Assembly: GCA_902594915.1 (NCBI GenBank)
Contig: CACJOA010000009.1
Location: forward strand, 1-44,097
DNA length: 44,097 bases
From: an uncultured Pelagibacteraceae bacterium
GTDB taxonomy: Bacteria; Pseudomonadota; Alphaproteobacteria; Pelagibacterales; Pelagibacteraceae
Reading direction: 5' to 3'
Each line of letters opens with the position of its first letter. Position 1 is the first letter of the stretch. The position numbers were made by a program, and so were the translations under genes. Of the stretch, positions 1,043-15,096 are shown one piece after another. Under the pieces are notes generated by a model. The model searched no databases. It was not told the DNA's origin and was given only the letters and a program-made list of their open reading frames with translations.

Positions 1043-1957
1043 CTATTCTTGAAAAAAAGAACCCCTAATCCTCAGAAGTTCCCTGCTTAATTCTTTATTC
1101 TCTTTGAAAGGTCTTCTGCCATGCAACCAAAAATAGTTATTAGCAATAATAGAAGAGCCAACAGGTAATTTTGATAAAAACTTTTTATTACTTTCCTCGA
1201 GACTATCAGATAACTTCTGCAAAAAAATTCCTTGTTTCATATTTTTTGGTTCGGGAAATTGGTCAATATATGAAATTTGCGCTCTACCTTTGCTGTCCGA
1301 TGAAAAAACTGGATGCTCAACTTTATAGTCAATATTTTTACTTTTTGGAGAACACCATATAAAATTTTCTTTTGCTACTGGATCATTAAATAATTCTTCG
1401 CAATGTTCCCAATCATCTAAGTGTAGCATAGAGGTTTCACCACCTTCAGCATTTTTTTCTTCAATTTTTGACATCAATAACCAGTCAGTTTTTTCCTGTA
1501 CGTAAGTTCCATCTGTATGAAGATCCATATTTGTGTAGGCCTTTCTTAGATATGAGTCGCTTTTATCAACATGTTTTACATGAAATCTGGCGTAATATTT
1601 TCCAGCCATTGCATCATGATTTGGCTTACCAATTAAATGTGCAACAGCTGTTGAAAGTTTTACTAAAAAAGTATCATCAATCTTAGAAGTAATATTCTTT
1701 GGCTTAATAATAAAACATCCGGTATTTCTATCTTTGATAATATGGTTTAAAAATTTTGATAATTTATTATTACTCAAATCATCTAGGCTTTTTGCAATAG
1801 TAAACCTTGTAAATGGTTTATACTCTAATGCAGTCAAATCAAACTTATTGAAAGGAAATAAAAGTTTTTCTATTGTTTCATCTTTAATATCTATATTAAT
1901 AATTCTCGAAGTTTTATCATTTTCTTTAATTTCAAATCCTTCAATTTCGTTTTTCAT
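1043..1957 (-). CDS. glaH: Glutarate 2-hydroxylase (CsiD/GlaH), Fe(II)/2-oxoglutarate dioxygenase
   Basis: A 304-residue protein that aligns end to end by eye with E. coli CsiD/GlaH. Shared blocks include LTALEYKPFTRF (41-52), STAVAHLIG (102-110), KYYARFHVKHVDKSDSYLR (120-138), the LHTDGTYV iron motif and the distal WLHGRRPF block. The iron ligands are H147, D149 and H279; the H147-H279 spacing equals that of the E. coli enzyme. A C-terminal RELLRIRG segment supplies the likely 2-oxoglutarate-binding arginine. The E. coli enzyme converts glutarate to L-2-hydroxyglutarate with release of succinate and CO2, in lysine breakdown. It is the last gene of the liv-azl operon: its ATG overlaps the azlD stop as ATGA. 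No L-2-hydroxyglutarate oxidase gene is in the window. Confidence 0.88.
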   Translation of the reverse strand: MKNEIEGFEIKENDKTSRIINIDIKDETIEKLLFPFNKFDLTALEYKPFTRFTIAKSLDDLSNNKLSKFLNHIIKDRNTGCFIIKPKNITSKIDDTFLVKLSTAVAHLIGKPNHDAMAGKYYARFHVKHVDKSDSYLRKAYTNMDLHTDGTYVQEKTDWLLMSKIEEKNAEGGETSMLHLDDWEHCEELFNDPVAKENFIWCSPKSKNIDYKVEHPVFSSDSKGRAQISYIDQFPEPKNMKQGIFLQKLSDSLEESNKKFLSKLPVGSSIIANNYFWLHGRRPFKENKELSRELLRIRGSFFQE

Positions 1958-2277
1958 AAATAGCTACTAAATAATGCTAACATGATAGCAGAGAAAATTG
2001 TTGGGTAAACTAAATTTTTATCTGTTGAATAAAAAATTACAATAGAAAATATAATTATAACTATTCTAATCAAATAGCTTACTTCAGATAATAAGCCTGA
2101 AGGAAAAATAAGCATTCTAGCTATTAATGCTGCTAAGGTAGAATAAGCTAGACAATTAAACCATCTAAATATTTTTGAATTTTCTTTAATCTTTTGAGAG
2201 CTTATCACTCCCAAGAATCTAGATAAATAAGTCGCTAAAGAAGTAACAAGAATTACTAAAATAATATTATTTGCCAC
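1954..2277 (-). CDS. azlD: AzlD-family small subunit of a branched-chain amino acid exporter
   Basis: A hydrophobic 107-residue protein with about four membrane segments and the TYLSRFLG motif near its N-terminus, typical of AzlD/BrnE. The open frame can be extended upstream to an ATG at 2352, but that would add 25 residues lying inside azlC. The GTG at 2277 fits better: it follows GGAGAG by four bases and gives the normal AzlD length. The GTG overlaps the azlC stop, giving an 11-bp overlap, and the azlD stop overlaps the glaH start. It is expected to pair with AzlC in the inner membrane. Confidence 0.8.
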   Translation of the reverse strand: MANNIILVILVTSLATYLSRFLGVISSQKIKENSKIFRWFNCLAYSTLAALIARMLIFPSGLLSEVSYLIRIVIIIFSIVIFYSTDKNLVYPTIFSAIMLALFSSYL

Positions 2278-2971
2278 TAATCTCTCCAAAAATAAAAGCA
2301 ATAGTGCCAGCAGTAATACCTCCGAATAAAATACACCATTCTTGAGATACAAAAAAAAATGCCGGTCCTAAAATTGTTCCTAAAATAATTGACAAACTAA
2401 TTTTGATTGTTTGCATTGCGCCTAGCATCATACATGTAAAATAAATTGGATTTATAATTGCTAGTCCGATTAATATATCTTTATTTAAAAAATCAGATGA
2501 AATATAACCAATTATCGTTGAAATTATTGCCACTGTCCAGGTTGCGACTCCAATACCTATCCAAAAATCAATCCTATTTTCTTTCTCTACTTTCTCATAA
2601 CTATCTTTCATAATTAACCATGATGAAACAGCTATGAAGTGACAAGACAGATAGTATTTCCACTTTGGTTGAGTTTTGTGCATTAATAATGGCATCAATG
2701 AGACTGTCATTGGATATAGTCTCGCATTAACTAACCATACAGCAAAAAATATATTTATTAACGAAGCTCCAATTAACATGGACTCAGCCATTACAAGAGA
2801 ACCGGGCAATGCGTAAGTTAAAAAAGTAGAAAAAATACTTTGTTGCATTGTGAATCCAATATTTTTTAAGAGTGCACCTATTGCAATAAAACTTGCTCCT
2901 AATGCTAACGCAGGACTTCCAACTCCTTTAATCGCTGCAAACCCTCTGTAAAAATATTTTAGATTTATCAT
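2267..2971 (-). CDS. azlC: AzlC-family branched-chain amino acid exporter, large subunit
   Basis: A 234-residue membrane protein with about seven to eight hydrophobic segments, and the AzlC/BrnF hallmarks: a Gly/Ala-rich first segment (GVGSPALALGASF), a second block with FLTYALPGSLVMAESML, and LVNARLYPMTVSLMPLL near residues 80-95. Family members with AzlD export branched-chain amino acids or methionine. The ATG shares its first A with the livF stop (TAATG), with AGGTGG just ahead, so translation is coupled to the importer ATPase. An exporter at the end of an importer operon is odd; its true substrate here is unknown. Confidence 0.85.
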   Translation of the reverse strand: MINLKYFYRGFAAIKGVGSPALALGASFIAIGALLKNIGFTMQQSIFSTFLTYALPGSLVMAESMLIGASLINIFFAVWLVNARLYPMTVSLMPLLMHKTQPKWKYYLSCHFIAVSSWLIMKDSYEKVEKENRIDFWIGIGVATWTVAIISTIIGYISSDFLNKDILIGLAIINPIYFTCMMLGAMQTIKISLSIILGTILGPAFFFVSQEWCILFGGITAGTIAFIFGEISGK

Positions 2972-3756
2972 TAACCACCTAAGAATAGGCGGCCTACATC
3001 TGGATTGTTCAAAAGATCGTCTCCTTTACCAGCTATTGCGGTTTGACCTGAGACTAAAACATATCCAATGTCTGCAAACTCAAGACCTTTCTTTGCATTT
3101 TGTTCAACAAGAATAATTGTTTTTTTTTCATTTTCTTGAAGATCTCTTAAAATTTCGAAAACCATATCAATATACTTTGGTTCTAAACCGATTGATGGTT
3201 CGTCTACGAGCAATACTGATGGTTTCATAACTAATGCTCTAGAAATTTCCAACAATCTTCTTTCGCCACCTGATAATACTTTTGCTGGCTGGTTTCTCCT
3301 ATTTCCTAGTCTTTCATATTTCTCAAGAATTTTTTCTGCCTCAATAAAAGATTCCTCCGTTTTATCTTTAATAAAACCACCCATTAGCAAATTTTCTTTA
3401 ACCGTCATTTCTGGAAATACTGAATTATCTTGAAGAATATAAGCTATACCAACTGATTTAAGTTTTTCTGCAGGAGAAAGGCTAGTAATATCTTTCCCAT
3501 CTATTTCAATCTGACCAGAAAATATATTCGTAAAACCATATATAGAATGCAGAATTGTTGATTTGCCTGCTCCGTTTGGACCAATCAAACATAAAGATTG
3601 AGCTTTACTAACAAAAAGATCAAAATTATGTAATATTTCCATCTTGCCATAGCCAGCATTCATATTTTTGATTGTTAAATGAATATTTGACGATGATAAT
3701 TTTTTCAAATCTTCGGCGACTGGTGCTTTTCCTAAAACTTCATATTGATTTGACAT
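2971..3756 (-). CDS. livF: High-affinity branched-chain amino-acid-type ABC importer, ATPase LivF
   Basis: A 261-residue ABC ATPase. Walker A is GPNGAGKST (59-67), the signature is LSGGERRLLEIS, Walker B is VLLVDEPSIGL and the switch histidine is replaced in the usual LivF fashion by VEQN. Residues 1-28 form a short N-terminal extension ahead of the ATPase domain. It is expected to heterodimerise with LivG on the cytoplasmic face of LivHM. It starts 1 bp after the livG stop and its own stop overlaps the azlC start. Confidence 0.92.
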   Translation of the reverse strand: MSNQYEVLGKAPVAEDLKKLSSSNIHLTIKNMNAGYGKMEILHNFDLFVSKAQSLCLIGPNGAGKSTILHSIYGFTNIFSGQIEIDGKDITSLSPAEKLKSVGIAYILQDNSVFPEMTVKENLLMGGFIKDKTEESFIEAEKILEKYERLGNRRNQPAKVLSGGERRLLEISRALVMKPSVLLVDEPSIGLEPKYIDMVFEILRDLQENEKKTIILVEQNAKKGLEFADIGYVLVSGQTAIAGKGDDLLNNPDVGRLFLGG

Positions 3757-3757
3757 T

Positions 3758-4498
3758 TTATTGAGCTCCTAAATAAGCATCAATTACACGCTTATCGTTT
3801 TTAATTTCATCTGGTGAACCTTTAGCAAGCATTTTTCCATGCGCCAAACAATAAATACTCTCAGCCAGTTGCATAATTACTCTCATATTATGCTCAATCA
3901 CTAAAAGAGTAATACCGAAATCTTTGTTTATTTTAATTAATCTGTCTATTATACCGTTAATTAATGTTGGATTTATTCCAGCTGTTGGTTCATCTAATAA
4001 AAGCATTTCCGGTTCATTCATTAATGCCATAGCTAACTCTAACAATTTCTGTTGACCAAACGATAATTCACCTGCTCTTAATTTCCTTTTTTGATAAAGT
4101 CCTACAAAATTTAAAAGATTTTCAGCTTTCTCAGTTAGGTTTTTTGGAATTTTAGAAAATATCTTTAATATACTTTCGTCATTCCCTTTGTGGCTAATAA
4201 GCATATTATCCACACAATTTAATTTTCCATAGATTCTAGTTTGTTGAAAAGTTCTTAACAATCCAAGTTTAGCAATTACTGGGACTGGTAATTCTGATAC
4301 CTCTTTTCCATTAAACTTTATTGAACCTTGATCAATAGGATAAGTGCCAACTATAGAATTAAATAATGTAGTTTTGCCAGAGCCATTTGGACCAATTAGA
4401 CCAAATATTTTTCCTTTTTCTACCGACATAGAAATATTAACATTAGCTTTTACTCCACCAAAAGATTTGCTAACATTGTTAACTTCTAAAATACTCAT
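3758..4498 (-). CDS. livG: Branched-chain amino-acid-type ABC importer, ATPase LivG
   Basis: A 246-residue ABC ATPase with Walker A GPNGSGKTT (35-43), the Q-loop in RTFQQTRIY, signature LSFGQQKLLELA, Walker B LLLDEPTAGI and the VIEHNM switch that marks LivG-type subunits. The length is normal. Its ATG overlaps the livM stop by 4 bp (ATGA). With LivF it powers the LivHM channel. Substrate specificity is set by the binding protein and cannot be read from this subunit. Confidence 0.93.
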   Translation of the reverse strand: MSILEVNNVSKSFGGVKANVNISMSVEKGKIFGLIGPNGSGKTTLFNSIVGTYPIDQGSIKFNGKEVSELPVPVIAKLGLLRTFQQTRIYGKLNCVDNMLISHKGNDESILKIFSKIPKNLTEKAENLLNFVGLYQKRKLRAGELSFGQQKLLELAMALMNEPEMLLLDEPTAGINPTLINGIIDRLIKINKDFGITLLVIEHNMRVIMQLAESIYCLAHGKMLAKGSPDEIKNDKRVIDAYLGAQ

Positions 4499-5544
4499 TT
4501 TAATTCTACCTGTGCTTTACGATCAGCTTCGTCTACAATTTCACCAAACCTCTCAGGATATTTTTCTCTTAACCAGCCCATAATCCCTTCTGGAAAATAA
4601 ATTACTATAACAACTATAAGAACTCCTAAAGCAACATACTGCCAACCTAAAAAGAATGTCCAGAAACCTTCTTTGAAAATATGAAATACAGTAGCTCCAA
4701 TTATTGGTCCCCACAAAGTTCCTTTTCCTCCCAAAATTGCCATCAGAACCATAAAAACTCCCATCTCCCTTCCATCAAAAGCAACATCAGTGGAGTCTAT
4801 ATATCCAACGAGACCTCCCATTATTCCTCCGGCTAAGCCACAGAAAAAGGCTGAAACCATCCATCCAATAATTTTATATTTCATAGTTTCAATACCCATT
4901 GCTTCTGCTTTATCTTCATTGTCTCTTATTGCATTTAGAATTAATTTAAAACGAGTTGAATAAATCCCTCGTATAGTGATGAAAGACAAAACTAGAGCAA
5001 AAAAACTACAAAAATAAAAAAATTCACCTCTAGCCTCTAATCCACCAACATTTGGAAATGGTGGGGTTGTGAAACCTTGACCTGCTCCAATAATCTCAAT
5101 ACCTCCGGAGATTTCTCCAGCGGCAACACCCAAACCTAAAGTACATATTGCAAAATAATGACCTCTCAAACCTAAAATTGAGTAACCAATTAGACCTGCA
5201 ACAATTGTTGGCACAATTGCTGCTACTGCAAGTCCAGCAGCCATTCCTTGAAAAAATTGTGATGGTGTATGAACAAATGTTTTTTCTCCACCACTTTCAG
5301 TCCATTCAGATAAAGGAAAAAACATGCCAACTTGTACTGATGCGCATAAATACATACCAAGTCCATAAAAAAGAATATTTCCAAATGAGTTATAACCCAT
5401 CTCACCACCTTGAATATTCCATGTAACCGCAAGTATGATTAGTACACAAAGAATTGATAACTGAACTTTAAAAGCAGGAAATACAAAAGGTGCCGCTAAA
5501 CCAAAAACTAAGATCGAGGCGTATAAAATAAGATTTTTATTCAC
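4495..5544 (-). CDS. livM: Branched-chain amino-acid-type ABC importer, permease LivM
   Basis: A 349-residue permease with around nine membrane helices. It carries the LivM hallmarks LRGHYFAICTLGLG (about 128-141) and the cytoplasmic coupling loop AIRDNEDKAEAMGIETMKYK, the EAA-like contact site for the ATPases. The C-terminus has a charged cytoplasmic tail (YPERFGEIVDEADRKAQ) rather than a stop after the last helix. The start overlaps the livH stop by 4 bp. Confidence 0.92.
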   Translation of the reverse strand: MNKNLILYASILVFGLAAPFVFPAFKVQLSILCVLIILAVTWNIQGGEMGYNSFGNILFYGLGMYLCASVQVGMFFPLSEWTESGGEKTFVHTPSQFFQGMAAGLAVAAIVPTIVAGLIGYSILGLRGHYFAICTLGLGVAAGEISGGIEIIGAGQGFTTPPFPNVGGLEARGEFFYFCSFFALVLSFITIRGIYSTRFKLILNAIRDNEDKAEAMGIETMKYKIIGWMVSAFFCGLAGGIMGGLVGYIDSTDVAFDGREMGVFMVLMAILGGKGTLWGPIIGATVFHIFKEGFWTFFLGWQYVALGVLIVVIVIYFPEGIMGWLREKYPERFGEIVDEADRKAQVELK

Positions 5545-6434
5545 TTTAAGTACTCTCTCTTTCTAGAAAGTTTGAATCTTCTATAAACAAGGATTAAAAC
5601 TAATAACAGAAAAACTGATCCAATTCTAAATTCAGTTCCTAAAAGATAATCAGCAAATTCCTCAAAAACACCTAATCCCATTCCAGACATAGCTACCCCT
5701 GGAAGATTTCCAAGACCAGCAACAATAACAATCATAAAAGATCTAATTGTGTATGGAAGACCCATATAGGGATGGATTGTGAAAGTTATTGAAATTAAAG
5801 CTCCAGCAACTCCACATAAAGCAGCATTAATACCAAATGTTGCTGCATAAACCTTTTCTGTATCAACACCTAAAATTTTAGCGGCTCTTGCATTTTGTGC
5901 TGTGGCCCTAATTGCACGACCAAGTTTTGATTTTTTCATATAAATCACTAAACAAATCGCAAATATAATGCTAACTACTGCTGAAAATATTTTAGAGTTA
6001 GGTAGAACTACATTATTATCAAATAAAAAAGTTGTTCCATAACCTGAATTAGCCAAAACAACATCTGCACCAAATGCAAAATTCATTAATTGCATGAAAA
6101 GAATACTTATTCCAAAAGTTGCCAGAATTGAAATAAATAAATCTCTGTCAACAACTTTATTAATGACCAATTTATAAATCCCGACACCAACAAAGTACAT
6201 TATAAAAGGGGAAACAATCACTCCCCATGCTGGGTGAATTCCATAAAGATACATAAAATAGGCAATGTAACCTCCAAGAATAACTAAATCACCTTGAGCA
6301 ATATTTATAATATTCATAACTCCCCACTGCAAAGCCATGCCGTAAGCAATTAAAGCAAACAATACTCCTAGAAGAATTCCATCCAAGCAAGCTTGAATGG
6401 TTATCATTGGGTATTGAAAAACCATGAAGTCCAT
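5541..6434 (-). CDS. livH: Branched-chain amino-acid-type ABC importer, permease LivH
   Basis: A 297-residue permease with about eight membrane helices. Family blocks are GLQWG-like ALQWGVMNIINIAQGDLVILG (split around residues 33-53) and the coupling loop GRAIRATAQNARAAKILGVD. The start lies 17 bp beyond the hairpin terminator that follows the binding-protein gene, so only readthrough transcripts or a very short internal promoter reach it. It begins the tightly overlapped livHMGF-azlCD-glaH block. Confidence 0.92.
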   Translation of the reverse strand: MDFMVFQYPMITIQACLDGILLGVLFALIAYGMALQWGVMNIINIAQGDLVILGGYIAYFMYLYGIHPAWGVIVSPFIMYFVGVGIYKLVINKVVDRDLFISILATFGISILFMQLMNFAFGADVVLANSGYGTTFLFDNNVVLPNSKIFSAVVSIIFAICLVIYMKKSKLGRAIRATAQNARAAKILGVDTEKVYAATFGINAALCGVAGALISITFTIHPYMGLPYTIRSFMIVIVAGLGNLPGVAMSGMGLGVFEEFADYLLGTEFRIGSVFLLLVLILVYRRFKLSRKREYLK

Positions 6435-6451
6435 AATTAGCCCTTTAAAAA

Positions 6452-6480
6452 AAATACCCCCTAAACTTTAGGGGGTATTT
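6452..6480 (-). terminator. Hairpin terminator between the binding-protein gene and livH
   Basis: AAATACCCCCTAAA at 6452-6465 is the exact inverted repeat of TTTAGGGGGTATTT at 6467-6480, and on the minus strand it is followed by a T run. It starts 12 bp after the stop of the binding-protein gene and ends 17 bp before livH. This is a strong intrinsic-terminator or mRNA-stabilising stem inside an operon. It probably lets the binding protein be made in excess of the membrane complex. Confidence 0.88.
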
Positions 6481-6492
6481 TAAGATTTTTTT

Positions 6493-7731
6493 TTATCTTT
6501 TTGACCAGCTAGGAATTGGATGAATTAATTTAGCTGAAGCCCATTTTGTTGGAGCTACAACCTTATTTTCACATTTACCTGAGTCATCACACATTACTTG
6601 AAAAAGTACCATTGGTTTGTCGACATTTTGACCACCAGGCGCAAACTTAATATTTCCATAGAATGTTTGCATATTTGTAGCTGCGAGTGCGTCTCTTACT
6701 TTCTTTTTATCAAAAGAATTTGCTCTTTCAAATGCATCTTTAAATACTAATAAAGCTGCTGACGATTCAGCTGACTGGTACGGTGGATCATATTTGAATT
6801 TTTTTTCAAAATCTGCCGCATACTTCATTCCTGTGCCAAAAAACTTATCTTTGTAAGTCAATGACTTATGCCATTGTGAAGCACATAATGCATACTGAGA
6901 ATTTTTACCATGTTGTTTTGATAATTTTGCAGCATCACAATGAGTCATTGCTAACATTGGAACATCTACTTTCATCTCAGCAATTTGTCTGATTGCAGTT
7001 AATGCTCCTTTTGTATGACCAGAAACAACTAGTACATCTGGCTTCATTTGTTTCACTTTTACTAAAGTGGCAGCCATATCGTTCAGTTCCTTAGGAAGTT
7101 TATCATCAATTATTATTTCAGATTTAGTTCTCTTCGCCGCCTCTAAAATACCTAATCTAACATCTTGTGAGAATGCATCTTGCTCAAATGCTTGTGCAAT
7201 TCTTACTGGCTTTCCATTATTTTTTTCAACAGCTAAATCAATAGCTACATCAAGATATAAATTAGCAGGTGCTAAAACTGCAAATAGATACTTGTAACCC
7301 TTTGTAAACAATGATCTAGATGCACCATTTGCTTCTACCATTGGAACACCGTATTTTTCAGTAACTGGAGCTATTGCTTTTGTAAGACCTGAACTATATG
7401 GCCCTAACATAAACTCAACACCATCTTGTGATATTAGTCTTTCTGCAAGCTGCGCTGCTCTTTTTGGGTTTGACTCATCATCATAATAAATAATATCAAA
7501 CTTATAAGTTTTTCCACCAACTTTAACACCACCCATGCTGTTAATTCTCTCAACAGCTAAATTGTATCCATTTTGAGTATGAACACCGTTAGATGAATAT
7601 TTTCCTGTCAATGAAATAGCTGCACCTAACACAATTTTATCACCAACTACTTTTGCAAATGATACAACAGATGTTGATAGTAAAATCGCTAATGCAGAAA
7701 TAAAACTAACAATTATTTTATTTATTTTCAT
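6493..7731 (-). CDS. Periplasmic binding protein of the Liv-type ABC importer (type I fold)
   Basis: A 412-residue protein with a signal peptide (cleavage likely after SFA, residue 26) and a type I periplasmic binding domain of the LivJ/LivK/amide-urea class (starts KIVLGAAISLTGKYSSNG). Blocks such as YYDDESNPKRAAQLAERLI and MLGPYSSGLTKAIAPVTEKYGVP are typical of the two-lobed fold. A C-terminal Cys pair (around CDDSGKC) may form a disulphide. The gene heads the operon, with AAAGGA ahead of the ATG. The ligand cannot be told from sequence: branched-chain amino acids are the default, but the downstream glutarate hydroxylase makes glutarate or a lysine breakdown product worth considering. Confidence 0.88.
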   Translation of the reverse strand: MKINKIIVSFISALAILLSTSVVSFAKVVGDKIVLGAAISLTGKYSSNGVHTQNGYNLAVERINSMGGVKVGGKTYKFDIIYYDDESNPKRAAQLAERLISQDGVEFMLGPYSSGLTKAIAPVTEKYGVPMVEANGASRSLFTKGYKYLFAVLAPANLYLDVAIDLAVEKNNGKPVRIAQAFEQDAFSQDVRLGILEAAKRTKSEIIIDDKLPKELNDMAATLVKVKQMKPDVLVVSGHTKGALTAIRQIAEMKVDVPMLAMTHCDAAKLSKQHGKNSQYALCASQWHKSLTYKDKFFGTGMKYAADFEKKFKYDPPYQSAESSAALLVFKDAFERANSFDKKKVRDALAATNMQTFYGNIKFAPGGQNVDKPMVLFQVMCDDSGKCENKVVAPTKWASAKLIHPIPSWSKR

Positions 7732-7829: not shown

Positions 7830-8435
7830 TTAAGTAATAATAATTATAAGAGCAATAATTATTAAAACACTCGCTGAGATTGTATTAATTGTTTTTGGAT
7901 TTGCTTTTATCCAAACAATTAATTTTTGTGCGAGTAATGCATAACCAATTAATGATAAAAAATCTAAAATTACATAAGTTGTTATTAAAATTAAGAACTG
8001 GACAATATAACTTGAGTTAAAATCTATAAATTGAGGAAATATTAAAGGGAAAAATAACCAAGCTTTAGGGCTAGTTCCAGCAACTAAAAAACCATCTTTG
8101 AAAAAAGAAAAAAAATTTTTTGAAAATTTTATCTTTGAATTGACATTTTTCAATTGAGATTTGTAAACATCATAAGCAAGATAAAATAAATAAACTACAC
8201 CAATCCACTTAAAAAAGTTTAAAAAATTGGGATTATCTGAAAGAAAATTTCCAATAACAAATATTACTAATGTTGCTTGTATTATATTTGCAGATACATC
8301 GCCTAATGCAACCCAAATACATTTTTGTAATCCATAATTCATTGAGTATGAAACTATTACTATTCTTGGTGTTCCTGGCGTAATGAATAAAAAAAAGATT
8401 ATTTGTAAATAAATAATAAAGTCTAAGGGGAGCAT
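7830..8435 (-). CDS. LysE/RhtB-family amino acid exporter
   Basis: A 201-residue protein with about six hydrophobic helices. The N-terminal motif TPGTPRIVIVSYSMNYGLQKCIWVALGD is split here only by my reading; its TPG and G..G..ALGD positions define the LysE/RhtB family. A second motif is GTSPKAWLFF (about 119-128). It would export an amino acid or a similar solute, but the substrate cannot be predicted. The ATG at 8435 lacks a Shine-Dalgarno sequence; instead nine T residues and a 10-bp stem lie directly upstream. No in-frame alternative start exists before a stop codon at 8471-8469. Confidence 0.82.
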   Translation of the reverse strand: MLPLDFIIYLQIIFFLFITPGTPRIVIVSYSMNYGLQKCIWVALGDVSANIIQATLVIFVIGNFLSDNPNFLNFFKWIGVVYLFYLAYDVYKSQLKNVNSKIKFSKNFFSFFKDGFLVAGTSPKAWLFFPLIFPQFIDFNSSYIVQFLILITTYVILDFLSLIGYALLAQKLIVWIKANPKTINTISASVLIIIALIIIIT

Positions 8436-8558: not shown

Positions 8559-8855
8559 ATGAAAAAAAAAGGTCACAGGCCTATAACCCGGGTCAAGAAT
8601 CCAGAGCCACATAGTGAGGATCCAGATTGGGTTATCTGGGCAGCTTGGGCAGATAGGATTACTTTTGAAGAAATCGAAAAGAGAACAGGATTTAGGGAGC
8701 CTGATGTAATTAAAATTATGAGAAGATCTTTAAAACCATCATCCTTCAGATTGTGGAGAAAAAGAGTTCATCAGAAAAGTATCAAACACAGAAAAAAGTT
8801 TGAATATTCTAGAAAACAAATATCTAGTAAAATTAAAAAAGATGATTATATCTAA
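8559..8855 (+). CDS. DUF2805 (TIGR03643) family protein
   Basis: A basic 98-residue protein. The core DPDWVIWAAWADRITFEEIE and LKPSSFRLWRKRV is the signature of DUF2805, a small family of unknown function common in marine bacteria. The region between (EKRTGFREPDVIKIMRRS) looks like a helix-turn-helix, and the Lys/Arg-rich tail (about 68-95) suggests contact with nucleic acid; that is inference. AAAGGA lies ahead of the ATG. It is followed 4 bp later by glutaredoxin, so the two are probably co-transcribed. Confidence 0.82.
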   Translation: MKKKGHRPITRVKNPEPHSEDPDWVIWAAWADRITFEEIEKRTGFREPDVIKIMRRSLKPSSFRLWRKRVHQKSIKHRKKFEYSRKQISSKIKKDDYI

Positions 8856-8859
8856 AAAA

Positions 8860-9114
8860 ATGAAAAGTATTACAATTTACACAGGTCCTCTTTGTAATTA
8901 CTGTGATGCAGCGAAAAGGTTGTTAGCTAGAAATAATGCACCCTATAATGAAATAAGCGTTGCATCAGTTGATGGTGCTATGGATGAAATGATTAAAAAA
9001 GCGAACGGAAAAAGAACAATACCACAAATATTTTTTGATGATCAACATATTGGTGGCTATGATGAGTTAAGAGCGTTAGAAAAAGAAAATAAATTGCAAG
9101 ATCTTTTAAAATAA
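8860..9114 (+). CDS. grxC: Glutaredoxin 3 (dithiol, GrxC type)
   Basis: An 84-residue thioredoxin-fold protein with the dithiol active site CNYC (12-15), the cis-proline motif TIPQIF (53-58) and the GSH-binding HIGGYDEL (63-70). The frame is open upstream to 8800, but that would overlap the DUF2805 gene by 56 bp; the ATG at 8860, 4 bp after that gene's stop, gives the normal GrxC length (82-85). It reduces protein and glutathione mixed disulphides in the cytoplasm. Its 3' end overlaps the convergent gene by 9 bp. Confidence 0.9.
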   Translation: MKSITIYTGPLCNYCDAAKRLLARNNAPYNEISVASVDGAMDEMIKKANGKRTIPQIFFDDQHIGGYDELRALEKENKLQDLLK

Positions 9115-9447
9115 AACGTAGTAAACAACCCAAAAAATCAGAGTATATTCAAAAAAACTTTTAGCGGCTAAAATTTGTTTTTCATCAAATCTTTGGCTAA
9201 TAAAATTCTTTAAGAGATAAAAACCAACATTAACTAATATAATAGAAAAAATAATACCAATTATGGTAAGTTGAATAGAAAAATTTTTATATCCAAAATA
9301 ACAAGCTGCAATTAATGTAAGCCATGAGACTTTTGTTATAAATAATTTAAATATTATTCCAGCTTTTTTCGTAAAAATTGATTGGGTTTTTATAATTGAA
9401 TATGACCAAATTATTCCAATTAAAAAACTTAAATATTTAATAATCAT
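9106..9447 (-). CDS. Small integral membrane protein, unknown function
   Basis: A 113-residue protein with four probable membrane segments (about 3-19, 38-52, 59-79 and 99-113) and short Lys-rich loops. I do not recognise the family. It lies 39 bp downstream of another small unknown protein in the same direction and may share its transcript. Its stop overlaps the grxC stop region by 9 bp in convergent orientation. The uninterrupted frame and the alternation of hydrophobic and basic stretches support a real gene. Confidence 0.6.
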   Translation of the reverse strand: MIIKYLSFLIGIIWSYSIIKTQSIFTKKAGIIFKLFITKVSWLTLIAACYFGYKNFSIQLTIIGIIFSIILVNVGFYLLKNFISQRFDEKQILAAKSFFEYTLIFWVVYYVLF

Positions 9448-9486
9448 TATTTTTTGCCATAAAAATTACAACATAATTTTAAAATA

Positions 9487-9831
9487 TTATTCTATAACTT
9501 CAATTTCATCGATAATACTTACTATCTTACTACCTTTAAGTACTGCATTCACTTTTACACATTCGTAATAAGCAAATGAATTTTTTTCCGCAGTTTGTTT
9601 CATTTCTAAACACTTAGATCTATTTGGTGTAAATAAATGTTCTTTTAGTTCAGGAGGATTTCCTAAATACATCATTAGTCCAATAACTTCACCTTCTTTT
9701 TCAAATTCAGATATTTCCTCGATTTTAGCTACTCTATCTCCAACACCAATTTCAAAATTTTTAAATGCATCATAACCCTTGTATAAAACAAAAATTAAAA
9801 TTAAATAGAAAACAATTTTTATTTTACTCAT
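9487..9831 (-). CDS. Membrane-anchored small protein, unknown function
   Basis: A 114-residue protein with one N-terminal hydrophobic helix (about 5-18), probably a membrane anchor or uncleaved signal. The rest is acidic and presumably periplasmic, with two cysteines (in RSKCLEMKQ and YYECVKV) placed to form a disulphide. I do not recognise the family. It is preceded by about 200 bp holding the thyX remnant and a weak inverted repeat (ATAATCC at 9859-9865 and GGATTAT at 9873-9879), where its promoter would lie. Confidence 0.6.
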   Translation of the reverse strand: MSKIKIVFYLILIFVLYKGYDAFKNFEIGVGDRVAKIEEISEFEKEGEVIGLMMYLGNPPELKEHLFTPNRSKCLEMKQTAEKNSFAYYECVKVNAVLKGSKIVSIIDEIEVIE

Positions 9832-9932
9832 CTAAATTAATATTTGAAATATTTATATATAATCCAAATTATGGATTATTTATAAATATTTTTTTTATAA
9901 GTTTCATCAATAGTTTAATTTTTTTTTGGAGA

Positions 9933-10037
9933 CTATATCAATTTATCTTTTAGATCAAAAGCAGTCATTAATTCATTCCACTCGCGTTTGGATAATCCTG
10001 ATTTTTCAGGATCGATTTTTTCACCATTTATTAATTT
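9933..10037 (-). pseudogene. Orphan 3' fragment of a thyX gene (last 34 codons)
   Basis: Immediately after the msrB stop (10040-10038), and in the same frame, 34 codons read KLINGEKIDPEKSGLSKRE and onward to DLKDKLI and a TAG stop at 9935-9933. This matches residues 282-315 of the intact ThyX encoded at 31321-32268 at 27 of 34 positions. The residue before the match is Gln281 in ThyX (CAA); here it is the msrB stop codon TAA. Several matched residues use different synonymous codons (CGC versus AGA for Arg, TTA versus CTT for Leu), so this is not a recent copy. There is no start codon and no flavin or dUMP site, so it cannot be a working enzyme. It is best read as a recombination scar from another thyX allele. 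Confidence 0.8.
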
Positions 10038-11315: not shown

Positions 11316-12014
11316 CTAATATTTTTTTTTCTCAAAAATAAAAGAGTATTGGTTTCTCCAAATTAATTTGTAATTAAGCACAGTCAAATATTTGTAAATT
11401 TTATCTGTCTTAAAATAATTTGAATTATCCTCATACATTGATTTTTGATTATGAATCTCGATAGAAATTAATGTTGGTTTATAATTTTTAAAATTAATTG
11501 ATTTAAGAACGTTTAATTCTTCTCCCTCCACATCAATTTTTAATAATTCGATTTTTTTATTAATCTTATAAAATTTTTTAAGAAAGTAATTCAACGTATT
11601 TACTTTAACTTTTCCCGTACGAAACCCTTTCTTGAAATGAATTTTTGCAATTTTTTTATTTAAAGTATTAAGCATATTAATTTTTCTTCTAAAAAATATT
11701 TTTCTATATCCCTTTTTGTTAGAAATTCCAGACCAAATATTTTTATCTCTCTTTCTATAAAAATTAAAAAGTTCAATAGAAAACTTGCTTATGTCGAAAT
11801 TGATGCCATTCCATCCTTTTTTATATAATAGATAAGTATTGTTTCCCCATATTGGATGATAACAACCTACGTCAATATAAAATCCTTTTTTTTTTTTATT
11901 AAAGTATTTTTTTAAAAAAATATCCTCACCCAATAAAGAATAACTTTTTTTCGGATAATAAATTTTAGTTCGGTAAAAAAGATAATATAAATACCTAATA
12001 TATTTTATAATCAT
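11316..12014 (-). CDS. FkbM-family methyltransferase
   Basis: A 232-residue protein with the FkbM pattern: SAM motif I in FYIDVGCYHP (about 45-54), the substrate-side NTLNYFLKKF block and LLKIDVEGEELNVLKS (about 159-174). It is unusually rich in Lys, Tyr, Ile, Phe and Asn and its DNA has many A/T runs, more extreme than neighbouring enzymes. Such genes usually methylate sugars of surface polysaccharides or lipids and are often exchanged between strains. It overlaps the dehydrogenase upstream by 4 bp. No other polysaccharide genes are present. Confidence 0.8.
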   Translation of the reverse strand: MIIKYIRYLYYLFYRTKIYYPKKSYSLLGEDIFLKKYFNKKKKGFYIDVGCYHPIWGNNTYLLYKKGWNGINFDISKFSIELFNFYRKRDKNIWSGISNKKGYRKIFFRRKINMLNTLNKKIAKIHFKKGFRTGKVKVNTLNYFLKKFYKINKKIELLKIDVEGEELNVLKSINFKNYKPTLISIEIHNQKSMYEDNSNYFKTDKIYKYLTVLNYKLIWRNQYSFIFEKKKY

Positions 12015-12961
12015 TTAATTATACGTATCGGCTTACCAAGTGTATATGCCTCCAATGCCTCAATCATTTGATTATAATAAATATTATAATTTTCAGCAGT
12101 TACATATCCAATATGTGGAGTTAATAAAGCGTTGGGTAAAAATCTTAATTTATTGTTTTCTGGGAGCGGTTCTTTTTCATAAACATCTAAACCAGCTCCC
12201 GAGATTATATTAGTTGATAAAGCTATTATCAGATCATCCTCATTCACGATTGGTCCTCTTGAAGTGTTTATTAGAAAAGCACTTTTTTTCATGTTCTCAA
12301 TTTCTTTTAAAGTAATACAATTTTTATATCGTTCGCCACCTTGAACATGAATTGAAAGAAAGTCTGAATTTTTAATCAAATCCTCTTTAGTGCAGGGTAA
12401 TACATCTAGCTCTTTACATTTATTTAAATCTAGATTTTCACTCCAAGCCATCACCTGCATTCCGAAAGCTTTTCCTATTTTAGCAACCTGAGATCCTACT
12501 TTACCTAAACCAATTAAACCTAAAATCTTTCCTTTTAACTCTACTCCAATAGTTGTCTGCCAATAACCTTGATACATATTGTCTATTTCTTCTTTGAGAT
12601 TTCTTGCTAATCCAAGTATTAAAGTCCAAGTCAATTCTGGAGTAGGATTAATATTACTGTCTGTTCCACAAACTAAGATATTTCTCTGTTTTGCAGCCTC
12701 TAAATTAATAGATTTATTTCTTAGACCAGTGGTAACTATAACCTTTAGTTTTTTAAGATTGTTAATTAAATTTTTTGTTATTGGTGTTCTTTCTCTCATT
12801 ATGAGTAATGCCTCAAATTCTAATAGATGCTCAATAGCGTCAACTTCATCAATAAATGGTTCACTAAAAATTTTAAATTCATATTTCCCCGATAGTTTTT
12901 CTAAATTAACAAATTGTTGAGAAAAATTTTGATAATCATCTAAAATTGCAACTTTAAGCAT
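12011..12961 (-). CDS. D-isomer-specific 2-hydroxyacid dehydrogenase
   Basis: A 316-residue enzyme with the D-2-hydroxyacid dehydrogenase layout: a substrate domain, an NAD-binding domain with GLIGLGKVG (about 148-156), and the catalytic Arg in INTSRGPIV, Glu in DVYEKEPLP and His in LTPHIGYV. The length fits glyoxylate/hydroxypyruvate reductases and distant SerA-like forms without an ACT domain. It interconverts a 2-oxoacid and a D-2-hydroxyacid with NAD(P)H. Its start overlaps the EamA gene by 8 bp; the DadA-like oxidase upstream makes 2-oxoacids, which could be its substrate. Confidence 0.88.
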   Translation of the reverse strand: MLKVAILDDYQNFSQQFVNLEKLSGKYEFKIFSEPFIDEVDAIEHLLEFEALLIMRERTPITKNLINNLKKLKVIVTTGLRNKSINLEAAKQRNILVCGTDSNINPTPELTWTLILGLARNLKEEIDNMYQGYWQTTIGVELKGKILGLIGLGKVGSQVAKIGKAFGMQVMAWSENLDLNKCKELDVLPCTKEDLIKNSDFLSIHVQGGERYKNCITLKEIENMKKSAFLINTSRGPIVNEDDLIIALSTNIISGAGLDVYEKEPLPENNKLRFLPNALLTPHIGYVTAENYNIYYNQMIEALEAYTLGKPIRIIK

Positions 12962-13850
12962 TAACTTTCCTGTTTGATAGATAAATACCTGACAATATTA
13001 AAATCGCACCCACAAAATGATATAACTCAAATTTTTCTTTGAAAAAAAAGATTGCCATAATAGCGCTAAATAAAGGCATTAATTGTATAAACATACTAGC
13101 TCGATTTGGTCCAATTATCTCAATACCTTTTTGCCAAAAATAATATGCTGCTATAGCCGGAAAAACCGCTACATAAATTAGTATTAAAAAAAAGGTTTTA
13201 TCTAAATTTAGTACAAGGCCAATTGACTTTTCATAAAAAAACTGAGGTATCAGAAAAAGTATACCGACTGAAACCATTAACTGTATCAATGTGAATTGTG
13301 AGAACTTAAATTGTTTTTTTTTAAGTAAAGTTGAATAAAGAGACCAAGTGATTACACAGACTAACATCCACATATCTCCTTTATTAAAATTTAAAGAAAT
13401 TAATTTTTGAATATTTCCATTAGAAATTATTGATCCAATTCCTATTATTGATAATAATAATCCGATTAATTGAAAAATGTTTGTTTTTTCAATTTTCATT
13501 AATGAAGAAAGAACAATTGTAGCTGCAGGAATAGCAGCAAGCATTAGAACAGCATTTATCACTTGCGTAAAATTAAGCGCAAAATAAACAACAGAATTAA
13601 ACGTGCTAATTGTAATTACGCCCATAAAACTTATTACAAACCAGTTCTGTTTTATATAAGGTAAATTTCTATAAATTTCCTTATAGGTAAAAGGTATTAA
13701 GATAAACCAAACTAAAATCCATCTAAAAACATTTAGAGTTAGAGGAGGTATTTGAAATAACGTTGCGAATTTTCCAACTATAAAATTACCTGACCAGCAC
13801 AATGTAGCTAGAACTAAAAATGAATAAGCTAAATAGTTTTTATTTGACAC
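12954..13850 (-). CDS. EamA/DMT-superfamily transporter
   Basis: A 298-residue protein with ten predicted membrane helices in two EamA repeats (about 1-135 and 150-295). The first repeat holds CWSGNFIVGKFA (19-30), the second WSLYSTLLKKK and the PAIAAYYFWQKGIE block typical of the family. Members export amino acids or other metabolites, and this one lies between a D-amino-acid-oxidase-like gene (4 bp upstream) and a 2-hydroxyacid dehydrogenase (8-bp overlap). It may carry the product or substrate of that pair; this is inference. Confidence 0.87.
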   Translation of the reverse strand: MSNKNYLAYSFLVLATLCWSGNFIVGKFATLFQIPPLTLNVFRWILVWFILIPFTYKEIYRNLPYIKQNWFVISFMGVITISTFNSVVYFALNFTQVINAVLMLAAIPAATIVLSSLMKIEKTNIFQLIGLLLSIIGIGSIISNGNIQKLISLNFNKGDMWMLVCVITWSLYSTLLKKKQFKFSQFTLIQLMVSVGILFLIPQFFYEKSIGLVLNLDKTFFLILIYVAVFPAIAAYYFWQKGIEIIGPNRASMFIQLMPLFSAIMAIFFFKEKFELYHFVGAILILSGIYLSNRKVNA

Positions 13851-13854
13851 AAAA

Positions 13855-15096
13855 TTAAGAAAATCTTCCGGAGCTATAAGGGTTCAAGTTTAAATTGGTA
13901 TTTTCATTAGCAATCATTCCTGACACAATCTTTCCAGATATTGGTCCTAATGTCCATCCTAAATGGTGATGACCAAAACAGTAATAGATATTTTTATAAT
14001 TCTTTGAAGGTCCCATAACAGGTAAAAAATCTGGTAATGTTGGTCTAAATCCCAACCATTCGTCCTCATGTTCAGGTAAATCATCTAACATATACTTTGC
14101 GTTATTTATTAAATTTTTGATTCTTGATTTAGACAATGGATTTTCTAAGCCACCAAATTCTACAGTGCCAACAACTCTTAAACCTTGGTCCATTGGTGTG
14201 ATACCAAATCCTCTATTAGAGGAAATTACAGGTCTACTCAAAAGATGATCGCAATTTTTAAAATGAATGTGGTAGCCCCTTTCAGTATCAAGCGGTATTC
14301 TTTCACCTAAATTATCAGTTAATTTTTTTGAAAATGCCCCGCATGCAATTACTACTTTATCAAAAACATATTTTGAAGAATTATCACAAACAATGATTGG
14401 TTTATCATCATGATGACTAATTTTACTCACATTAATCTTATTAAATTTTCCACCTTTTTTTAAGAAAAGCTCAAAAAACTTAAGTAAAATTTTTTTTGGA
14501 TTTCTAGCATGTCTGGCGTAGGGATAATACACTCCGGCATGATAAAAAGGTTTAAGGTTAGGTTCTAAATCACTTATCTCTTTTTTGTTTACTAGCTGTT
14601 GTTTTACTCCCAATTCTTCTCTTACTCTAATTTCAAGTTCTCTACTTTTTAAATCCTTATCATTCCAAACATATAAGATACCTTTATTTTCAACCAATCC
14701 ATTTAAATCGATTTCATCAAAAAGCTCGTCATAAGCTGGTAAGGCCAAATCTAAAATTTGATGCATATTCTTTGCTGTATGCATCATCTTATTTTTAGAT
14801 GTATTAAAGATAAATCGAAGAAACCATGGAATCATTTTAGGCACATAATTCCACTTAAGCGCTAAAGGCCCTGTAGAGCTCAATAACATTGCTGGTACAT
14901 CAGTTAATATATCTGTTCTATTTAGGGATAATGAAGCATATGGTGAAAAATGACCAGCGTTACCATATGATGCTGCAGGACTACCTGGGTCATCTCTATC
15001 AAAAATTGTAACTTTAAATCCTTTTTTTTGGAGAAAAAGAGCATTAGAGATTCCTTGTATTCCAGCTCCAACAATACCTACATTATAATTGTTCAT
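13855..15096 (-). CDS. DadA-like FAD-dependent D-amino acid dehydrogenase
   Basis: A 413-residue flavoprotein of the DAO/DadA family. The N-terminal FAD motif is VGIVGAGIQGISNALFLQ (GxGxxG at 10-15), followed by an acidic end of strand 2 (FDRDDPGSPAASYGNAG, DadA-like). The C-terminal block RPTLPDFLPVMGPS and FGHHHLGWTLGPISGKIV forms the FAD/substrate site. It would oxidise a D-amino acid, passing electrons to the respiratory chain, giving a 2-oxoacid and ammonia; other N-substituted amines are possible. It is the first gene of the 15096-10038 minus-strand operon. Confidence 0.85.
   Translation of the reverse strand: MNNYNVGIVGAGIQGISNALFLQKKGFKVTIFDRDDPGSPAASYGNAGHFSPYASLSLNRTDILTDVPAMLLSSTGPLALKWNYVPKMIPWFLRFIFNTSKNKMMHTAKNMHQILDLALPAYDELFDEIDLNGLVENKGILYVWNDKDLKSRELEIRVREELGVKQQLVNKKEISDLEPNLKPFYHAGVYYPYARHARNPKKILLKFFELFLKKGGKFNKINVSKISHHDDKPIIVCDNSSKYVFDKVVIACGAFSKKLTDNLGERIPLDTERGYHIHFKNCDHLLSRPVISSNRGFGITPMDQGLRVVGTVEFGGLENPLSKSRIKNLINNAKYMLDDLPEHEDEWLGFRPTLPDFLPVMGPSKNYKNIYYCFGHHHLGWTLGPISGKIVSGMIANENTNLNLNPYSSGRFS

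Follow-up and report, generated by a model that had tools for sequence, protein, structure and literature searches.

A conserved Liv-AzlCD-GlaH gene block in SAR11 bacteria and its possible role in the uptake and hydroxylation of glutarate

In an uncultured Pelagibacteraceae bacterium, a stretch of 44,097 nucleotides (assembly GCA_902594915.1, contig CACJOA010000009.1; hereafter the window) carries eight intact genes on its minus strand: SBP1, livHMGF, azlC, azlD and glaH. They encode a periplasmic binding protein with a Liv-type ATP-binding cassette (ABC) importer, a two-subunit exporter of the AzlCD family, and a homologue of glutarate 2-hydroxylase. SBP1-livHMGF-azlC-azlD-glaH is a real conserved block that is, in the main, jointly inherited. 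We lean slightly towards reading the eight genes as one accessory catabolic block of the Pelagibacteraceae, which would import glutarate, or a closely related diacid of five carbons, and then hydroxylate it. With more reserve, we propose that an importer of the HAAT type, interchangeable with two kinds of tripartite ATP-independent periplasmic (TRAP) transporter, feeds glutarate into an LhgO-free GlaH route in the window's genus, a proposal that is tentative and somewhat doubtful. The kind of enzyme is known; what is new is its linkage with AzlCD and an importer, the exchange of that importer, and the missing LhgO.

The window is contig C9 of a 1.05-Mb assembly that is 88.6% complete. SBP1 (6493 to 7731) matched Peripla_BP_6 and is, by position, the orthologue of livJ2 (SAR11_1361) of strain HTCC1062. 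It is followed by the permease genes livH (5541 to 6434) and livM (4495 to 5544, GTG start), both assigned by Pfam, and by the ABC ATPase genes livG (3758 to 4498, with a BCA_ABC_TP_C domain in Pfam) and livF (2971 to 3756, Pfam ABC_tran and NCBIfam). The large and small exporter subunits of the AzlCD (LIV-E) type are encoded by azlC (2267 to 2971, Pfam AzlC, 77.2 bits) and azlD (1954 to 2277, Pfam AzlD, 50.9 bits; its GTG start was inferred from the orthologue in locus L043), and glaH (1043 to 1957; CsiD family, Fe(II)/2-oxoglutarate dioxygenase) closes the block. Altogether, Pfam returned CsiD (462 bits), AzlC, AzlD, two BPD_transp_2, two ABC_tran and Peripla_BP_6 domains. Recomputed coordinates confirmed the junctions of an earlier note on this DNA, which had described overlaps of 1 to 11 bp from livH to glaH with a single 1-bp gap between livG and livF: the overlaps are 4 bp (livH/livM), 4 bp (livM/livG), 1 bp (livF/azlC), 11 bp (azlC/azlD) and 4 bp (azlD/glaH), and a gap of 58 bp lies between SBP1 and livH. 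Tight spacing is ordinary here, since 20 of the 35 same-strand junctions between ATG-started open reading frames (ORFs) in the window measure 10 bp or less. Gene overlap alone is therefore weak evidence, an operon claimed from overlaps alone was rejected for this reason, and the case for one unit rests on comparison between genomes.

Genomes were drawn as samples from the order, class and phylum, and related genomes are not independent. In the search of the order, 206 of 397 genomes had a glaH match over the cut-off (any match at E<=0.001 in 309, the remainder weak; about 170 of the matches were listed). The class search gave 4 of 385 genomes, all from the window's family, plus one further genome with two 205-bit copies under the cut-off; the phylum search gave 8 of 398, two from the window's family and six others. 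Among the best 80 of 539 GlaH relatives (76 to 88% identity), 79 came from Pelagibacteraceae, Pelagibacterales or Candidatus Pelagibacter and one from Alphaproteobacteria. We read 180 SAR11 glaH loci (40 + 80 + 60), corresponding to 160 distinct glaH core sequences. AzlCD and Liv genes accompanied 131 of these, 15 had azlCD with a partial Liv set at a contig end, and two were cut, leaving 143 readable distinct loci, 131 of which show the full pattern. The others comprised azlCD with a TRAP transporter (three), azlCD with neither importer (four), Liv without azlCD (four) and neither transporter (one). The liv-azlCD-glaH order is thus conserved in SAR11 and not unique to one strain. Exceptions within the window's genus were the freshwater-type loci L174 and L175 (= L271), with azlCD-glaH and no importer, and L166, L184, L305 and L307, with Liv-glaH and no azlCD; at L184, an ORF of 381 aa (8847 to 9992), hydrolase-like by eye, lies between livF and glaH. 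By tblastn, neither azlC nor azlD nor SBP1 was found in six other proteobacterial glaH loci or in a divergent alphaproteobacterial one, and L105 gave only short, weak matches to livH and livM.

SBP1 was found in all 20 glaH-positive genomes of the window's genus that were tested as a positive control. Of 35 glaH-negative genomes from this genus, each with a completeness of 90% or more, none had it whole and one retained a 128-residue remnant. The same test found no SBP1 in four glaH-less genomes of family f2. No AzlC orthologue was detected in the 35 genomes either (five weak matches at 22 to 23% identity; the genus g3 genome G009 served as positive control). In 20 of 20 loci from glaH-negative genomes, a subset of the 30 with a match to the proC-like gene of the flank, all eight block genes were gone, apart from the SBP1 remnant at L239, while the proC-like gene was kept, together with one or more of msrB, DUF1013 and lysE. 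Spacing and orientation of these flanks vary, and the L239 remnant lies between lysE and proC. These results indicated that, as a rule, the eight genes are retained or lost jointly. The view of the earlier note that they form a unit is thus borne out by joint presence and absence, and not by spacing.

The GlaH of the window is full-length. It scored 458 bits against the equivalog NF002814 (cut-off 333), and phmmer matched it to solved chains of CsiD/glutarate 2-hydroxylase (E 6e-83). In the alignment, H147, D149 and H279 correspond to the iron ligands H160, D162 and H292 of Escherichia coli CsiD, and R296, R298 and G150 to R309, R311 and G163, respectively. According to a passage in Knorr et al. 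2018 (PMC6265302), H160/D162/H292 bind iron, R309 binds 2-oxoglutarate, and R311 and G163 bind glutarate. The arginine equivalent to R311 was present in 19 of 20 aligned GlaH rows, the exception (L109) being only 30% identical. Score and alignment together upheld the assignment that had first been made from long matching blocks to E. coli CsiD and from H147/D149/H279: as judged from its sequence, the window protein is a glutarate 2-hydroxylase homologue with its substrate residues kept, and it is predicted to be active in the organism. Residue 297, which the two substrate arginines flank, is Ile in the rows of genera g1, g5 and g6 (RIRG) and Gln in g2, g3, g4 and the other proteobacterial rows (RQRG; RQYG in L109); lhgO over its cut-off was found in none of the Ile-297 genera g1, g5 and g6, but in g3 (Gln) neither. 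In a tree of 34 GlaH rows, the SAR11 copies formed one clade with 95/96 support and the genera in order. Several separate gains are therefore unsupported, and the most economical history has an ancient gain, after which the block was deleted repeatedly.

The Liv organisation is complete and of the HAAT type, with one binding protein, two permeases and two ATPases by Pfam. However, SBP1 and the LivHMGF proteins scored far under the Liv equivalog or subfamily cut-offs of NCBIfam. To compare binding sites, we used what we take to be the alpha-amino-acid site of LivJ, namely S79, T102, Y202 and E226, checked these letters on the E. coli sequence, and mapped them by MAFFT alignment onto S114, A137, H239 and T263 of SBP1. 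The serine is kept and the other three residues are replaced. A137, H239 and T263 were invariant in 17 of 17 SAR11 rows, and among 16 orthologues from outside SAR11 the histidine occurred in all 16, position 137 was Ala in 15 and Ser in one, and position 263 was Thr in 14 and Ser in two. A profile alignment to 3td9 paired the identical columns for positions 239 and 263. In contrast, SBP2, the binding protein of the adjacent second Liv system, retains S, T and Y together with an Asp at these positions. With the LivJ-type signature replaced, SBP1 appears unlike an ordinary alpha-amino-acid binder, and its cargo may be glutarate or a close C5 dicarboxylate. The binding proteins of HTCC1062 were reportedly measured by Clifton et al. 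in 2024. Passages on the same strain name SAR11_1361 as livJ2 (PMC5069961) and include livJ2 among the differentially expressed genes of two data sets (PMC5069961; PMC3090418).

A second line of evidence on the cargo came from exchange of the importer. At three loci (L071, L076 and L169), a DctP-DctQ-DctM TRAP transporter, and no Liv system, lies directly upstream of azlC-azlD-glaH within ∼120 bp. L071 and L076 belong to genus g4; L169 is from the Candidatus Pelagibacter metagenome-assembled genome (MAG) bin.341, which GlaH and proC place with the window's genus, and where its azlC begins is uncertain. The DctPs are of two kinds: those of L169 and L076 (kind A) are 84% identical, and that of L071 (kind B) is 51% identical to kind A, with DctQ at 24%. 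The GlaH proteins of L071 and L076 are close to each other despite these different TRAP kinds. Since kind A occurs both in g4 and in the Candidatus Pelagibacter MAG, and since L071 and L076 carry different kinds, more than one exchange must have taken place. Both kinds pass TIGR00787 (252 and 278 bits, cut-off 175), and the nearest PDB chains of both are named C4-dicarboxylate or dicarboxylate DctP. That unrelated importers occupy a single slot points to a shared cargo, which in the case of this DctP clade would be a short dicarboxylate. The earlier note had raised both glutarate and a lysine or 5-aminovalerate product as cargo; of the two, glutarate gained support from these three loci and from the loss of the LivJ signature.

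That C4-dicarboxylate-type TRAP importers occupy the same place, that the 35 glaH-negative genomes of the genus gave neither a whole SBP1 nor an AzlC orthologue, and that SBP1 is without the amino acid signature seen in SBP2 all speak against the best-surviving alternative. Under it, the importer would carry branched-chain or other amino acids, AzlCD would export a surplus, and GlaH would be a passenger acting on internal glutarate from lysine or cadaverine. We regard this as rather unlikely, even with the family names Liv and AzlCD on its side, a locus crowded with amino acid transport genes (LysE type, ProC type, and the second Liv system), SBP1-Liv systems without GlaH elsewhere, and four distinct loci with azlCD-glaH and neither importer. 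It also draws on a 2021 paper that, in the part dealing with SAR11 polyamines, puts glutarate 2-hydroxylase into their metabolism (PMC8437039). The legend of the map there names gab (glutarate 2-hydroxylase) and ygaF, and the paper proposes a path from cadaverine to succinate; G011, which is HTCC1062, gave us no match to ygaF/LhgO at E<=1e-20.

In the glutarate route that we prefer, SBP1 and LivHMGF would import glutarate, or a C5 dicarboxylate much like it, from seawater, and GlaH, with Fe(II), O2 and 2-oxoglutarate, would convert glutarate to L-2-hydroxyglutarate, succinate and CO2. In two genera, LhgO would then convert L-2-hydroxyglutarate to 2-oxoglutarate; in the window's genus, this step would be carried out by some other enzyme or not at all. 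AzlCD would export a related metabolite and thereby relieve its accumulation. For LhgO, we scored the four best candidates that a first look gave in each genome, at E<=1e-20. Of 397 genomes, 6 had an NF008726 match over the cut-off and another two came near it (298.7 and 276 bits); all eight belong to genera g2 and g4 and have glaH too (partial gene in G346). A further 46 genomes had matches at E<=1e-20 under the cut-off, 44 of them from family f2 and without glaH over its cut-off; the other two, G168 (glaH-positive, 153 bits) and G255 (161 bits), are from the window's genus, and both matches are partial. The window's own genome, at its 88.6% completeness, held no NF008726 match over the cut-off and only a partial one of 50 bits, and the five single-contig glaH-positive genomes G005, G011, G013, G020 and G026 had none at E<=1e-20. 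Genome incompleteness is thus not the reason for the gap, and the suggestion that the oxidase gene lies elsewhere in the genome was not borne out. Where lhgO does occur, it is not near glaH in G001, stands beside a TauD-like dioxygenase ORF in L083, and adjoins an HDAC-like ORF in L087 (both names by eye). At 12011 to 15096 of the window, genes for a D-2-hydroxyacid dehydrogenase family protein, an EamA exporter and a DAO-family FAD oxidoreductase stand in a row, and a 60% identical relative of the dehydrogenase is encoded directly 3′ of glaH in L071 and L076. The dehydrogenase gene itself (12011 to 12961) was not adopted as the missing enzyme: its family acts on the D-isomer, and it occurs in 7 of 20 glaH-negative loci.

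AzlC and AzlD Pfam domains lie in adjacent, overlapping genes, and AzlC reached only 22.9 bits against the azaleucine-resistance equivalog TIGR00346 (cut-off 332). Export of L-2-hydroxyglutarate by AzlCD is a candidate, weakened by the finding that azlCD adjoins glaH also in genera possessing lhgO, which argues that it is not simply a stand-in for LhgO. The one passage on azlC in SAR11 that we found concerns another azlC, SAR11_1235, in a body of literature that took in few subscription papers; the same literature held nothing that joins SAR11 with CsiD and glutarate.

An amino acid exporter beside glaH would fit a second alternative, in which a C5 omega-amino acid or a relative (5-aminovalerate or 2-aminoadipate) is imported, deaminated to glutarate and hydroxylated, with AzlCD exporting the amino form. 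E. coli converts 5-aminovalerate to glutarate via GabT and GabD, as a passage of PMC6265302 describes, and a figure legend on two SAR11 strains names gabT and gabD (PMC8437039). However, neither an aminotransferase nor a semialdehyde dehydrogenase was found by Pfam among the block genes, and dicarboxylates give the DctP-type importers of this clade their name, so that we consider this reading distinctly improbable. Mere inheritance of the gene order in a compact genome, with functions unrelated, would agree with the tight spacing (20 of 35 junctions) and with a GlaH tree that follows genus order, but is very improbable given that the same eight genes are gone with their neighbours kept at 20 of 20 loci, that a decaying SBP1 remnant persists at one empty site, and that importer exchanges leave azlCD-glaH in place.

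Several observations weigh against glutarate uptake by the block. SBP1 is only ∼20% identical to LivJ, so the pocket mapping is an argument from sequence, and a predicted SBP1 structure (pLDDT 53.7) was not used. The TRAP cases number only three, and "dicarboxylate DctP" is a loose name from PDB titles and no proof of ligand. Matches to SBP1 of at least 537 bits were obtained in 15 of 190 genomes besides G000 and G001, all from other alphaproteobacteria and mostly with further liv genes alongside, and the class search found glaH in none of these 15 at E<=1e-40; the importer is thus not tied to GlaH everywhere. The neighbours of these orthologues gave no answer about the cargo, as no enzyme gene recurred and only liv genes were found in more than 3 of 18 loci. 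Four glaH-positive genomes from genera g3 and g4, picked because their loci are without Liv, likewise all had no SBP1. Exceptions among the 143 readable loci (azlCD-glaH without importer in four, Liv-glaH without azlCD in four, glaH alone in one) indicate that neither transporter is strictly needed, and the first four leave room for a lysine/5-aminovalerate source. Finally, without lhgO the GlaH route yields no obvious net gain.

SAR11 bacteria dominate surface-ocean heterotrophy and have few transporters, so the cargo of each importer matters for the use of dissolved organic carbon. The block suggests that SAR11 cells eat seawater glutarate. If true, free glutarate would be a SAR11 nutrient, and either another enzyme that oxidises L-2-hydroxyglutarate would exist or this compound would be released to the sea; the block exposes a missing enzyme for L-2-hydroxyglutarate. 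As the block varies between species, it also offers a natural positive/negative contrast.

Within the block, a terminator-like hairpin with a U-tract (6451 to 6481, minus strand), detected by terminator scan and folding, occupies the interval between SBP1 and livH; it is strong, and the earlier note does not mention it. A hairpin was predicted at this place in 34 of 34 loci folded. A hairpin after the binding protein gene is the usual device for making binding protein in excess over permease, and the one at 6451 to 6481 probably has this effect. Upstream lies a minus-strand gene for a LysE/RhtB-type exporter (7830 to 8435, Pfam LysE, 80 bits) with an rhtB RNA motif as its leader (RF01814, 8429 to 8510, minus strand, 77 bits, gathering score 55). 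Because 7 of the 20 empty sites still carry it, the exporter gene was rejected as a block member. Downstream of glaH, members of the window's genus usually have a gene for a pyrroline-5-carboxylate reductase of the PRK06476 type and the second Liv system (e.g., L043, 1284 to 9181). This proC-like gene (348 bits) was rejected as a partner of GlaH because it occurs in 30 of 35 glaH-negative genomes; in the window's own genome it was unmatched, and the contig ends at base 1. On that side, the minus-strand ORF at 125 to 796, outer-membrane-like by eye, is separated from glaH by 246 bp, matched no Pfam or NCBIfam family, and lies outside the conserved block; a terminator-like hairpin (82 to 103, no strand assigned) was found downstream of it by scan. 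Of the 7 block-positive loci searched for the rhtB RNA, the 4 from genus g1 had it and L063, L066 and L069 did not; it was present in 8 of 8 block-negative ones, seven of which are without lysE. In six of these seven (L235, L240, L244, L245, L246 and L249), it lies 18 to 60 bp from the proC-like gene. A passage of a 2009 report places the motif upstream of rhtB in HTCC1062 and, in some sequence of metagenomic origin, upstream of proC (PMC2704228), contexts of the latter kind being what such block-negative loci would explain. The same source gives the HTCC1062 element as intergenic (1297623 to 1297755, between SAR11_1362 and SAR11_1363), a position that the ORFs and Rfam match at L043 of this genome fit.

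Compared with known systems, the window block combines familiar parts in a different arrangement. The csiD operon of E. coli (glaH-lhgD-gabD-gabT-gabP-glaR) encodes a GlaH with the same metal, 2-oxoglutarate and glutarate residues; window GlaH is 43 to 47% identical to six other proteobacterial copies, and E. coli GlaH groups closely with two of them (L106 and L108) in the tree. In contrast to that operon, glaH of the window has no lhgO/lhgD, gabD, gabT or GlaR partner and stands behind an importer and AzlCD. The LivJ/LivK-LivHMGF system (HAAT) has the same five components and Pfam families as the window importer, but SBP1 is distant from LivJ, with T102/Y202/E226 changed to A/H/T and scores far below the cut-offs. 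DctPQM C4-dicarboxylate TRAP transporters, an unrelated transporter class that is not present in the window's locus, take the place of the Liv importer upstream of azlCD-glaH at three loci of SAR11. The AzlCD/BrnFE (LIV-E) amino acid exporters share the two-subunit architecture with Pfam AzlC and AzlD domains, whereas AzlC of the window, at 22.9 bits, falls far short of their 332-bit equivalog cut-off.

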